A stretch of 64,000 nt of DNA from Stenotrophomonas sp. 704A1 (GTDB lineage Bacteria > Pseudomonadota > Gammaproteobacteria > Xanthomonadales > Xanthomonadaceae). The DNA lies in the NCBI RefSeq assembly GCF_030549525.1, contig NZ_CP130831.1, forward strand, positions 2,257,501-2,321,500, read 5' to 3'. The first letter of the stretch is position 1. Each line of letters starts with the position of its first letter. The notes under the pieces were generated by a model. That model saw only the letters and a program-made list of their open reading frames with translations. It was not told the DNA's origin and ran no database searches. Shown one piece after another: positions 8,836-14,626 of the stretch. Position numbers and translations under genes: made by a program.

Positions 8836-10131
8836 TCAGCCCAGCAGCTGGGTGGCATCGAGCAGGATCATGGGGCGCTGGCTGATCCGGGCGACGCCGC
8901 GGAACAGTTCATTGGAGATCTGGCAGATGCGCGCGGTATCGGGCGGTTCGATCTGCGAGTCGGTGAGGTTGGCGACATCCTCCACGGCCGACACGCGCAG
9001 GCCGAGGGTCTCGCCGTCCTCTTCCAGCACCACGATGCGGGTCTGCGCGTCGTCGGCGGCCGAGGCGGCGCCCAGATGCAAGCCCAGGTCCATCACCGGC
9101 ACCACCTGGCCACGCAGGTTCATGATGCCGAGCATGGCTGGCGCGGTACCGCGCAGCGGCAGCAGCGGTACCGGCAGCACGACTTCCTGCACCTTCAGCA
9201 GTTCCAGTGCATAGGCCTGGCTGCCGCAGCGCAGGCGCAGCCAACGCGAGGTGCGCTCGCTGGCACGGCGGCTCTGCGGGTGCGGGCTGCTGGCCGGTTG
9301 ATGCGCCTGGGCCTGCAGTTCCTGCCAGGTGCCAGGGCGGTTTGCCGCCGGTGCATCCACGGCCACCCGCGGCGGCGGCGCCACCGCGGCGCGTGCCGCA
9401 GGCGCCGGAGCGGCTGCGGCGACCCGGGCGATCGGTGCCGCCGGCGGAGGGACCACATCGCCGACGGCGGCGGCCTCGAACGCCGCCTGCAGCCCGGGGC
9501 TGTCGGTGTGCGCGAGGCTTTCGGCGGCGTCGGTCTCGTAGATCACCTCGTCCGGCAGGTCATCCCAGGTGGGTTCGGGTGCGGGCGCGGTTGCGGTTGG
9601 GGTTGCGTCCGCCGGGCATGGCCCGGCGCCACCGGCGGTGTCGAAGGCGGCATCGGCGGAGACGGTGCCGGTCTCGTAGATGACGTCGGCGGGCAGGTCG
9701 TCCCAGGTCGGTTCGCGTTCGGCGGTTGCGGTTGCGGTTGCGTCCGCCGGGCATGGCCCGGCGCTACCGGCGGTGTCGAAGGCGGCATCGAGTTCGGGGG
9801 CGACGGTGCCGGTCTCGTAGATGACGTCGGCCGGCAGGTCGTCCCAGGTGGGTTCGGGTGCGGCGGCGGTTGCGGTTGCGGTTGCGTCCGCCGGGCATGG
9901 CCCGGCGCTACCGGCGGTGTCGAAGGCCGCATCGGCGGCGACGGTGCCGGTCTCGTAGATGACCTCGGCGGGGAGGTCGTCCCAGGTCGGTTCGCGTTCT
10001 GCGGCGGTCGCGTCTGCGTCCGCCGGGCGGGGCGCGGTGGCGGCGGGCGCGGCGTCGCTGCGGGGCGCCGACGCGATCGCGTCGCCGAGCAGTTCGTCGA
10101 GGTAATCGTCGAGCAGGCCGGTGCTGTTCAT
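8836..10131 (-). CDS. parP: CheW-domain protein with long repeat-bearing N-terminus (ParP-like)
   Basis: 431 residues, against about 160 for a plain CheW. The C-terminal 140 residues are a CheW/AIF-type domain (WLRLRCGSQAYALELLKVQEV; LGIMNLRGQVVPVMDLG). The N-terminal 290 residues are Ala/Pro/Thr-rich and hold four copies of (E/P)EPTWDDLPAEVIYET near residues 48, 93, 140 and 187, separated by segments with AGPCPADAT. The gene overlaps the preceding ParA-type gene by 4 bases. In Vibrio the ParC ATPase and the CheW-like ParP (proline-rich N-terminus) sit together and hold chemotaxis arrays at the pole; that role is inferred here. The AGPCPADAT segments are encoded by REP/SMAG palindromes. Confidence 0.85.
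   Translation of the reverse strand: MNSTGLLDDYLDELLGDAIASAPRSDAAPAATAPRPADADATAAEREPTWDDLPAEVIYETGTVAADAAFDTAGSAGPCPADATATATAAAPEPTWDDLPADVIYETGTVAPELDAAFDTAGSAGPCPADATATATAEREPTWDDLPADVIYETGTVSADAAFDTAGGAGPCPADATPTATAPAPEPTWDDLPDEVIYETDAAESLAHTDSPGLQAAFEAAAVGDVVPPPAAPIARVAAAAPAPAARAAVAPPPRVAVDAPAANRPGTWQELQAQAHQPASSPHPQSRRASERTSRWLRLRCGSQAYALELLKVQEVVLPVPLLPLRGTAPAMLGIMNLRGQVVPVMDLGLHLGAASAADDAQTRIVVLEEDGETLGLRVSAVEDVANLTDSQIEPPDTARICQISNELFRGVARISQRPMILLDATQLLG
9611..9912 (-). repeat. Three REP/SMAG palindromes inside the parP reading frame
   Basis: Copies at 9611-9633, 9746-9768 and 9890-9912 match the intergenic repeat (GTAGCGCCGGGCCATGCCCG on the minus strand; the first copy begins GTGGCG). 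Each is read in the same frame as Ala-Gly-Pro-Cys-Pro-Ala-Asp. They recur every 135-144 bp within a larger duplicated unit. A decayed fourth copy may lie near 10016-10040. Confidence 0.9.
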
Positions 10132-10910
10132 GCGGCCTGCTCCAGCACGCGCGCGTCTTCGCCGAGGATCCAGTTCAGCGCACGCCGGTAGGCCGCGAGG
10201 CCGCGGCCGGGATAGTCCTCGCCGAGGCTGGGCAGGGTCAGGCCGGCAGCATTGCTGATGCGGGTGTCGATCGGGATCGCGTCTTCCCAGACGCGGCTGC
10301 CGTGCCGGTCCTGCATCGCGCGCAGCGATTCGTTGCCGGTACGGGTGCGGCGGTCGAACAGGGTGGGCAGGATCGAGATCGGCAGCGGACGGCGGCGCGA
10401 ACGCTCGACCATTTCACCGGTGCGCACCATGCCATCCAGGCCATGCAGGGCCAGCGGCTCGGCCTGGGTCGGGATGATCAGGCGGTCGGCAGCGGCCAGC
10501 GCGTTGATCATCAACAGGCCCAGGGTCGGTGCACAGTCCAGCAGGATGTAGTCGTGCCGGTCCTGGTGGCGGGTCAGGGCGTTCTGCAGGGCCAGGCCGA
10601 GACCCGGCTGGTTGGCGCTGCGCCGTTCCAGCGTGGCCAGCGCGGACTGCGCGCACACGTAGTCCAGCCCGCCGATGCGGCTGGCGTGGCTGAGCGTGGA
10701 GAGATCGGCCGGCGGCGCGCCGAACAGCTCCAGCACGCCGCTGGGCGGCGGCTCGATCGGCACGCCGAAGGCGCGGGTCAGCGAGGCGTGCGGGTCGAGG
10801 TCGATCAGCAGCACGCGGTGGCCGAGCGCGGCCAAGCCGCGACCGAGGGCGAGGGTGGTGGTGGTCTTGCCGACTCCGCCCTTCTGGTTGGCGACTGCCC
10901 AGATGCGCAT
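10128..10910 (-). CDS. parC: ParA-family ATPase for polar placement of chemotaxis arrays (ParC-like)
   Basis: 260 residues. Deviant Walker A KGGVGKTT at residues 10-17, Walker A' region LLIDLDPHAS, Walker B LLDCAPTLG. There is no DNA-binding or helix-turn-helix extension, which fits ParA-like proteins devoted to protein positioning rather than chromosome partition. It lies between motD (4 nt away) and parP (4-base overlap), the arrangement of polar chemotaxis clusters. The symbol follows the Vibrio chemotaxis ParC and must not be confused with topoisomerase IV subunit ParC. Function inferred from family and context. Confidence 0.85.
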   Translation of the reverse strand: MRIWAVANQKGGVGKTTTTLALGRGLAALGHRVLLIDLDPHASLTRAFGVPIEPPPSGVLELFGAPPADLSTLSHASRIGGLDYVCAQSALATLERRSANQPGLGLALQNALTRHQDRHDYILLDCAPTLGLLMINALAAADRLIIPTQAEPLALHGLDGMVRTGEMVERSRRRPLPISILPTLFDRRTRTGNESLRAMQDRHGSRVWEDAIPIDTRISNAAGLTLPSLGEDYPGRGLAAYRRALNWILGEDARVLEQAA

Positions 10911-12796: not shown

Positions 12797-14626
12797 TCAT
12801 CTCAGCCCGTCCACATCGAGGATCAGCGCCATGCGGCCGTCGCCGATCAGGGTGGCGCCGGCGTAGCCGCGCAGGCCGCGCAGCGCCTTCGGCAGCGGCT
12901 TGATGACCACTTCCTCGCGGCCGCGCACCTGGTCCACGACCAGGCCGAAACGCGCTTCACCGGCCTGCAGCACCACGATGGTCAGCAGCGACGAGGCGGC
13001 GGGCGTCACATCCAGCCATTGCCGCAGGTCCACCAGCGGCAGGGTGTGCGAGCGGCGGTCCAGCACGGCACGGCCGTCGAACCAGCCCAGCGAGGTGCGC
13101 GGCGCGTGCAGCACTTCCATCACGCGCGCCAGCGGCAGCGCGTAGACATCCTCGCCGGCCTGCACCAGCAGGGTGGGCAGGATCGCCAGGGTCAGCGGCA
13201 CGCGGATCAGGAAGCGGCTGCCGCGGCCCAGTTCGGACTGGATCTGGATCTGGCCGCTCAGCTCGCGGATGCGCGACTGCACCACGTCCATGCCGACGCC
13301 ACGGCCGGAGATGTCGGTGACCTGCGCCTTGGTCGAGAAGCCCGGCAGGAACACCAGGTGCAGGCATTCCTCGCTGCTCAGGCGGGCGGCCGCTTCCGGA
13401 TCGATCAGGCCCTTCTCGCGCGCCTTCGCGCGCAGCTTTTCCGGATCGATGCCGGCGCCGTCATCCTGTACTTCGATGCTGACATAGTCGCCTTCCTGCT
13501 GCGCCGACAGGCGCACGTGGCCCATCCGCGGCTTGCCCTGCGCCTCGCGCAGGTCGGGCATTTCCACGCCATGGTCGATCGCGTTGCGTACCAGGTGCAC
13601 CAGCGGGTCGGCCAGCGCTTCGACCAGATTGCGGTCGAGCTCGGTCTCGGCACCGATCAGCTCCAGGTCCACTTCCTTCTTGAGCGACCGCGCAACGTCG
13701 CGGGCCACCTTCGGGAACCGCGAGAACACCTTGCCGACCGGTTGCATGCGGGTCCGCATCACCGCCGACTGCAGCCGTGCGGTGGCGATGTCCAGGGTGG
13801 ACACCGCACGATCCAGCTCTTCGTCGCGCAGGCGCGTGCGCAGGGTCTTCAGGCGGTTGCGGGACAGCACCAGCTCGCCGATCAGGTTGACGATGGCATC
13901 CAGGCGCTTGGTGTCCACGCGCACGGTGTGCTCGGCTTCGGCAACCGGCTTGTTGGCCGCCGGCCGCGCGGCCGCTGCCGCCGGCGCTGCAGGTCGCGGC
14001 GCCGCTGCGACCGGCGCCGGCGCAGGAACCGCGCTGGCGCCCGGGGCGGCGCCGCCGTGAAGCTGGTCGAGCAGGGCTTCGAACTCGTCCTCGCTGATCA
14101 TGTCGTCGGCCTTCTTCGCCGCCGGCGCCACCGTGGTCGGCGCCTTGCCGCCATGCAACTGGTCGAGCAGGGCCTCGAATTCGTCGTCGGTGATCAGGTC
14201 GCCGGTGCCGGCCGCTGCCGGCGCCACCGCTGGCGCCGCCGCGGCGCCGCCCTGCACGTCGAACTGGGCGACCAGTTCCGGCGGGGCGTAGCCCGGTTCG
14301 CTGCCGGAGGACACCGCATCGAGCATCGACTGCAGGTAATCCAGCGATTGCTGGGCCGCATCGAAATGATGGGCCTGCAGCACGGCCTGGCCGGCGCGCG
14401 CGGCGCCCAGCGCCTCTTCGGCGGCGTGGCACAGTTCGACCATCGCGGTGATGCCGAGGAAGCCCGCGCCGCCCTTCAGCGTGTGGTATCCGCGGAAGAC
14501 CGCGTTGAGCTGTTCGTTGTCCTGCGGTGCCTGTTCCAGCGACACCAGCTGTTCGCCGAGGCGATCCAGGATTTCCTGTGCCTCGATGATGAAATCGGCA
14601 GTGATGTCGTCGGCTACCGCGCCCAT
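12797..14626 (-). CDS. cheA: Chemotaxis histidine kinase CheA (flagellar system)
   Basis: 609 residues. P1 Hpt domain with the phospho-accepting His in GYHTLKGGAG (H48); no compact P2, but a low-complexity Ala/Pro segment with two copies of DEFEALLDQLHGG (about 148-160 and 180-192); P3; P4 with N box LVHLVRNAIDHG, G1 DDGAGID and G2 DISGRGVGMDVV; P5 at the end. All kinase boxes are intact. It lies 2 nt after cheZ, in the fliA-cheY-cheZ-cheA order, so this is the kinase for the motor-binding CheY. The repeated acidic-hydrophobic motif is a good candidate for CheY binding in place of a folded P2; that is inference. Confidence 0.97.
   Translation of the reverse strand: MGAVADDITADFIIEAQEILDRLGEQLVSLEQAPQDNEQLNAVFRGYHTLKGGAGFLGITAMVELCHAAEEALGAARAGQAVLQAHHFDAAQQSLDYLQSMLDAVSSGSEPGYAPPELVAQFDVQGGAAAAPAVAPAAAGTGDLITDDEFEALLDQLHGGKAPTTVAPAAKKADDMISEDEFEALLDQLHGGAAPGASAVPAPAPVAAAPRPAAPAAAAARPAANKPVAEAEHTVRVDTKRLDAIVNLIGELVLSRNRLKTLRTRLRDEELDRAVSTLDIATARLQSAVMRTRMQPVGKVFSRFPKVARDVARSLKKEVDLELIGAETELDRNLVEALADPLVHLVRNAIDHGVEMPDLREAQGKPRMGHVRLSAQQEGDYVSIEVQDDGAGIDPEKLRAKAREKGLIDPEAAARLSSEECLHLVFLPGFSTKAQVTDISGRGVGMDVVQSRIRELSGQIQIQSELGRGSRFLIRVPLTLAILPTLLVQAGEDVYALPLARVMEVLHAPRTSLGWFDGRAVLDRRSHTLPLVDLRQWLDVTPAASSLLTIVVLQAGEARFGLVVDQVRGREEVVIKPLPKALRGLRGYAGATLIGDGRMALILDVDGLR

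Follow-up and report, generated by a model that had tools for sequence, protein, structure and literature searches.

Three palindromes of the GTAG REP (SMAG) family lie in frame in the N-terminal half of a parP-like chemotaxis gene of Stenotrophomonas sp. 704A1, where they occupy the linkers between WDDLP units and are translated as part of the protein. REP/SMAG elements are short mobile DNA palindromes that are usually located in intergenic DNA. The explanation favoured here joins an in-frame capture, duplication with the WDDLP unit, tolerated decay and renewal in REP-rich genomes, and was given a probability of roughly two-thirds. The features are listed in Table 1 by their position in the window, which is the whole 64,000-nt stretch of DNA that was analysed.

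Table 1. Features in and beside the parP-like gene, with positions in the window.
Feature	Position	Strand	Basis
parP-like gene, 431 aa, ATG at 10131	8836..10131	-	open frame, CheW domain, conserved N-terminus
CheW-like domain of ParP (aa 298-430)	8842..9240	-	Pfam CheW 2.6e-30
REP copy 3, 26/27 to consensus (GTGG for GTAG), GGAGPCPAD (aa 167-175)	9608..9634	-	consensus comparison
REP copy 2, 27/27 to consensus, GSAGPCPAD (aa 122-130)	9743..9769	-	consensus comparison
REP copy 1, 27/27 to consensus, GSAGPCPAD (aa 74-82)	9887..9913	-	consensus comparison
Possible REP fossil before first WDDLP, AATAPRPAD (aa 30-38), 8/27 mismatches	10018..10044	-	consensus comparison
WDDLP unit 4 (aa 184-200)	9532..9582	-	sequence
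WDDLP unit 3 (aa 138-154)	9670..9720	-	sequence
WDDLP unit 2 (aa 91-107)	9811..9861	-	sequence
WDDLP unit 1, EREPTWDDLPAEVIYET (aa 45-61)	9949..9999	-	sequence
parC-like ParA-family ATPase gene, 4-nt overlap with parP	10128..10910	-	AAA_31 1.3e-38

On the forward strand the core palindrome GCCGGGCATGGCCCGGC begins at 9611, 9746 and 9890, and on the coding strand of parP the copies read CGGTAGCGCCGGGCCATGCCCGGCGGA. An earlier note on this DNA had claimed three in-frame REPs read as AGPCPAD with a period of 45-48 residues, and this was confirmed by start-to-start spacings of 135 and 144 nt (45 and 48 codons), with the correction that the GTAG tag at one end is intact in two of the three copies only (aa 74 and aa 122), the copy at aa 167 carrying GTGG. 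A hairpin with an 8-bp stem and a 3-nt loop is formed by all three, as befits the perfect stem of 5-13 bp that is tabulated for GTAG REPs in PMC3733652 and the short loop of that family. Within parP, one 204-nt stretch recurs at 92% and an 88-nt stretch occurs three times at 85-100%, which, together with the spacing of the palindromes, indicates that the REP was duplicated together with its unit. The same three copies, all read as GSAGPCPAD, occur in a 95% identical homologue (P0001), in which the ends of the units differ. Codon shuffles of the N-terminal half of parP gave a mean of 0.05 REP matches, compared to the three observed.

The pattern GTAGNGCCGGGCNNNGCCCGGC has 441 matches in the 4.69-Mb genome (221 and 220 on the two strands, with a site that has GTAG at both ends counted twice), and its reversed control has none. 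The consensus CG-GTAGCGCCGGGCCATGCCCGGCG-RR was derived from 57 distinct REP contexts, which include both intact parP copies, and the match with parP exceeds the hairpin. A RAYT-like gene, identified by a Y1_Tnp match at G000:C1:4044644 (L112, ~4044644-4044964), is flanked by the same REP, with seven main-family REPs at 0-1 mismatch in its 3.3-kb locus, and its product is a candidate for the mover of these elements. A second Y1_Tnp match (L113) had no REP in its locus. Elsewhere in the genome, a tandem REP array at G000:C1:1562219-1562784 contains seven matches, all oriented alike and spaced 80-96 nt apart.

REPs in coding DNA were found to be rare in this genome, in line with the remark of the earlier note that REPs normally avoid such DNA. 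The sample comprised 131 REPs of both subfamilies from the window and selected genome stretches, without the GTGG copy of parP. While 103 of these fell inside some open frame of at least 80 aa, as expected for GC-rich DNA, coding-like flanks on both sides (codon score above -0.05, the 5th percentile of true coding windows) occurred in 3/131, namely both intact parP copies and one doubtful case, and no further coding REPs were found in the sample. The weaker-side codon scores were 0.28 and 0.20 for the parP copies and 0.10 for the third case, in a test that is crude, as the parP scores lie near the 95th percentile of wrong-frame windows (0.28). The coding status of the parP copies therefore rests on conservation and not on codon scores. 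The doubtful case is a REP at 5102 in L170 (3809-5197, minus strand), within the initial 32 codons of an ORF that encodes sigma-factor domains from aa 87 onward, and the true start of this ORF may lie downstream of the REP.

The gene at 8836-10131 is taken by us to be parP from its layout, rather than from an alignment with the Vibrio sequence. It stands beside the gene of a ParA-family ATPase among chemotaxis genes, with two CheA-like genes near the pair in the 64-kb window. The C-terminal CheW-like region is the sole Pfam match in the protein and is matched by solved CheW chains, and the N-terminal half consists of four WDDLP units with their linkers. The earlier note would have been undone by a protein that starts downstream of the repeats. 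The start lies upstream of the REPs, since the ATG falls within the 4-nt overlap with the ParA-family gene and codons 1-18 are strongly conserved, with a pN/pS of 0.04 in 25 genes; a wrong start codon or an over-extended ORF was ruled out on these grounds. As a separate observation, a CheA-like protein encoded at 12797-14626 on the minus strand has a duplicated linker segment, with DEFEALLDQLHGG present twice.

The search was extended to 91 genomes, all with some match, and a readable parP-like gene was obtained in 81 of them, this one included; contig-edge, partial or weak matches accounted for the other ten (G001, G014, G021, G028, G030, G048, G055, G068, G078, and G080). The gene L033 has no N-terminus and was excluded from state counts. 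At no more than 7/27 mismatches to the main consensus, 37 REP-like segments were identified in 22 of the 81 Stenotrophomonas genes, so the event is not peculiar to this genome. Every segment has the sense orientation, 36 of the 37 share the frame that reads GSAGPCPAD or variants, and codon shuffles across the 81 genes gave 0 to 0.1 REP-like segments per gene. With any of three REP consensus strings at up to 5 mismatches, 28 matches fell in the N-terminal coding DNA of parP (58.6 kb), 0 in the rest of the gene (34.1 kb) and 12 outside, all past its 3' end; the match in L072 was here counted as N-terminal by reading, where the automatic domain border gave 27 and 1. A consensus-free scan for a GTAG or GTGG tag with a perfect stem of at least 7, which covered the N-terminal parts of the 81 genes and of four more from other genera or MAGs (85 in total), returned 20 hairpins versus 2.55 in codon shuffles. 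Sense REPs made up 18 of these, in 12 genes, and the other two are antisense and look like chance.

Named loci gave an ORF in 40 of 42 cases (not L133 and L155), and 7 of the 40 hold a REP at up to 5 mismatches; several apparently belong to duplicate genomes already counted and add no extra evidence. In S. cyclobalanopsidis TPQG1-4, parP contains REP copies at 0, 0, and 1 mismatches. Among the best 120 of 1097 protein homologues, 43 had at least one intact REP-coded 9-mer and 77 had none. One homologue (P0037), a ParP of the Stenotrophomonas type, comes from a 4.6-Mb contig that bears the name Isoptericola jiangsuensis and is probably mislabelled. The parP N-terminal region is repeat-prone without REPs too; a distant parP (L081, G016) contains several copies of another tandem repeat, GDALLAELDAAFDQARGQYEQAQASAPAADS.

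A resemblance to the REP was found in the 27 nt beginning 18 codons ahead of the first W of WDDLP, with a mean of 10.3 mismatches in 33 genes of L001-L041, eight of the 41 (L003, L008, L019, L020, L022, L027, L028, and L033) having been left out for an N-terminal segment of different length or layout, an exclusion chosen by the analyst that favours genes where the anchored place is comparable. At 13 other offsets in the 33 genes 15.4-20.2 mismatches were found, and 0/300 codon-shuffled REPs at the anchored place were as low as 10.3, the lowest being 12.9. The resemblance is graded in 27 of the 33 genes, from 0 (L030) via 3-6 to 14 mismatches. The other six (L001, the group of its four nearest sister genes L002, L004, L023, and L024, and also L014) have 18-20 mismatches at the exact 18-codon place, and in L001, L004, and L024 the closest N-terminal match, at 7-8 mismatches, is displaced by one or two codons. 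The possible fossil of the present genome is positioned 20 codons before the W, compared to 18 in most relatives.

The internal linkers follow the same spacing in part, as 12 of 63 hold a REP (up to 6 mismatches) 18 codons before the W and three hold one at 21-22 codons, a spacing in agreement with the three copies in L001, a gene with expanded ACC GCA codons. The position of the REP within the unit varies; it follows YETxDT in L003, L008, L019, and L022 and AAFEAA in L007, L009, L014, and others. Clean empty sites marking the ends of an insertion were not found by eye in the unit sequences of 22 loci, because the linkers differ too much between species. The relatives show REP codons that are still discernible and decayed to varying degrees, and not the same residues in unrelated codons. 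Judged from these sequences, the decayed REPs in most parP genes of the S. maltophilia complex probably derive from one old in-frame capture that was multiplied with the WDDLP unit.

Substitution in the nine REP codons resembled that of the linker around them, with a pN/pS of 0.78 versus 0.68 and 0.82 on either side (25 genes). Both EREPTWDDLPxEVIYET (25 genes) and CheW gave 0.02, and AALEAAFEAA gave 0.10 (23 genes). All are raw proportions with no multiple-hit correction, and 16 of the 41 genes were left out of this test, namely the eight of the fossil test and, by the same choice on N-terminal length or layout, L001, L002, L004, L014, L018, L021, L023, and L024. Compared with the REP consensus itself, the REP codons gave 0.55, which points to a possible constraint on them. 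A conserved cysteine was rejected, as its place in 79 intact 9-mers (from the best 120 of 1097 homologues) was occupied by C in 29, R in 27, G in 18, L in 3, W in 1, and S in 1. The REP-coded stretch is best read as a tolerated spacer and not as a gained function. Of what the earlier note proposed, capture and multiplication with WDDLP thus largely stood and extends over much of the S. maltophilia complex, and a gained role for the REP peptide or its cysteine is not supported.

REPs of other kinds have also reached parP. The genes L068 and L069 contain a perfect hairpin of a second REP subfamily, GTAGAGCCGAGCC, and L050 a decayed one at 4-5 mismatches; the consensus of this subfamily was derived from L068 and L069 themselves in most scans, and the test of REP presence used the loop CCATG instead. 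Among the 91 genomes, the second subfamily is most numerous in the hosts of L068, L069, and L050 (G075, G027, and G073), with counts of 144, 210, and 145 and ranks 3, 1, and 2. All three genes belong to one clade of six, which reduces the second subfamily to one to three events. It keeps the frame of the first subfamily and nearly its spacing, and may possibly have replaced the first at one old site. In L072, GTAGAGCCGGGCCTTGCCCGGCT is read in a different frame as VEPGLARL, in a genome with 23 matches to that pattern, the parP copy included. This entry looks independent, unless frameshifts cancelled out. In L050, L068, L069, and L072 alike, the REP lies upstream of a WDDLP-like motif. In L068 (G075) the parP N-terminal repeats are also read through upstream in a shifted frame with no start, a frameshift or an assembly error. 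On a tree of the 81 genes, built from the CheW part and the parC end, REP presence changed 12 times at 5 mismatches and 13 times at 7, a count in which gains and losses are not distinguished.

The state of the parP copies was related to the number of REPs in the genome. Mismatches of the best parP REP fell as genomic REPs rose (Spearman -0.41, p 0.008, 40 genomes of the clade), and the 10 genomes with a copy at 0-2 mismatches all have 95-470 REPs, where the median of the 40 is 90. No fresh parP copy occurred in the REP-rich genomes G019, G042, G043, and G022 (350, 315, 244, and 194 REPs). REP presence was associated with REP number at 5 mismatches (one-sided p 0.010) and not at 7 (p 0.22). Tree-controlled independent pairs numbered 3.8 for and 0.0 against, with a median p of 0.125 from too few pairs, and 3.1 versus 0.6 at 5 mismatches, which leaves the link with REP number uncertain once the tree is taken into account. 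Fresh copies were probably renewed from the genomic pool, by new insertion or by REP-to-REP conversion.

According to the favoured explanation, an ancestor of the S. maltophilia complex would have captured a GTAG-type REP of the SMAG family in frame, in the ParP linker that immediately precedes a WDDLP motif. The REP-plus-WDDLP unit would then have been duplicated and reshuffled within parP. The REP, carried along, would be translated into a spacer of ~9-11 codons (GSAGPCPASAA or a variant of it), which the protein tolerates but for which there is no selection. The REP would decay almost like neutral linker with the adjacent WDDLP held constant, and in REP-rich genomes the palindrome would look fresh again through new insertion or conversion from the pool. 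The insertion may well be neutral for the cell, and the WDDLP motifs, not the REP, would do the work of the N-terminal half of ParP.

The reading in which there was no single old capture, REPs having entered an insertion-tolerant linker separately in many lineages with only the unit duplication being local, is considered unlikely. It draws on the 12 or 13 changes of REP state on the tree, on the varying position of the REP within the unit, on the second subfamily in precisely those genomes that lead in its count, and on the other frame in L072. Against it, however, stand the graded fossils found at the anchored place (27 of 33 genes), the recurrence of this spacing in internal linkers, the single orientation of all segments and the single frame of 36 of 37. 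If the palindrome were instead kept for a DNA or RNA hairpin acting in mRNA stability, translational pausing or protein binding, the peptide would be a by-product. About 23 of 38 codon-aligned REP-like segments (up to 7 mismatches) do keep all seven stem pairs with G-T allowed, and stems survive where loops vary (CCATG, CCACG, and CCGGG). However, the segments were picked by REP similarity, which biases them toward intact stems, the hairpin has gone from about half of the clade genes (segments in 20/41 genomes only), and in L007 and L032 substitutions like GGG CCA to GGC CCC disrupt it without altering the peptide. This makes retention for the hairpin improbable.

Selection for the REP-coded peptide, its cysteine or its length as a function of ParP would agree with the in-frame position in every gene that holds a REP, yet a linker-like pN/pS, a variable cysteine place and the 77 of the best 120 homologues without an intact REP-coded 9-mer leave this reading with very little probability. 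Chance palindromes in GC-rich Ala/Pro codons, or extension of an ORF from a wrong start, can be set aside almost entirely. The region is indeed GC-rich and Ala/Pro-rich, but the chance origin was excluded by the codon shuffles and genome counts, given 27-nt identity to a family of 441 matches, and the wrong start by the overlap with the ParA-family gene and the conserved N-terminus. Capture with duplication, decay and renewal thus remains the preferred reading. A further and more tentative idea, which we rate as somewhat doubtful, is that the linker before WDDLP is a standing landing place for REPs, where the active subfamily enters, is copied with the repeat, decays and is replaced. If this is true, a selfish element keeps supplying raw coding sequence to the tandem-repeat region of a chemotaxis scaffold over the history of the genus.

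Rocco et al. 2010 is said to be the SMAG paper, and Rickettsia palindromic elements were reportedly treated by Ogata et al. Intragenic REPs are already known, S. maltophilia included: GTAG and CGTC REPs wholly within ORFs, among them pseudouridine synthase genes of S. maltophilia, were described by Di Nocera et al. 2013 (PMC3733652), and the GTAG REPs of parP likewise lie entirely inside an ORF. In the view of those authors, insertion into flexible linkers or loops may be neutral, and most N-terminal intragenic REPs of S. maltophilia may reflect wrong starts, a caution that does not apply to parP. A REP multiplied in a protein tandem repeat, or a genus-wide fossil series, is not described in the sections of PMC3733652 covered here, and the words "chemotaxis" and "CheW" have 0 occurrences in its main text (as distinct from Additional file 3, with its full list of intragenic REPs). 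Rickettsia palindromic elements of 105-146 bp (PMC2229807) are mobile palindromes in frame in protein genes, portrayed in passages of PMC2229807 and PMC3733652 as apparently neutral or slightly harmful. In-frame insertion in protein genes is common to both systems and the parP element works alike, but it is a REP of ~27-34 nt copied with a protein repeat and, with this shorter length, not a member.

Variable numbers of SMAG-containing units at a locus, as in parP, are also known from the SMAG arrays used for genotyping (PMC2613905); the relevant passages are not about a coding array, and "ORF", "coding", and "chemotaxis" have 0 occurrences in the main text. In Vibrio, ParP binds ParC through an N-terminal domain, which is connected by a long, proline-rich linker to the AIF domain, in which L196, L209, L212, and W305 are conserved, as stated in parts of PMC5706961. 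The Vibrio and Stenotrophomonas proteins share a C-terminal CheW-like (SH3-like) domain, an N-terminal part on a long linker and an adjacent ParA-like partner gene, while the WDDLP units and REPs belong to the Stenotrophomonas one, a distinction made by description of Vibrio ParP and not by sequence alignment. No published account of REPs in parP or chemotaxis genes, or of REPs multiplied with a protein repeat, was present among the matches listed or in the main-text sections of PMC3733652 covered here. What seems to be new is the multiplication inside a protein repeat, the recurrence at a single linker and the series of fossils.

A REP inside a gene need not imply a wrong start codon. In ParP, one protein across a genus offers a series of fresh, decaying and fossil palindromes, with a sharply conserved neighbouring motif as a yardstick. 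Two questions thereby become testable: whether REP renewal proceeds by RAYT insertion or by conversion, and whether protein repeats can be seeded or lengthened by mobile palindromes.
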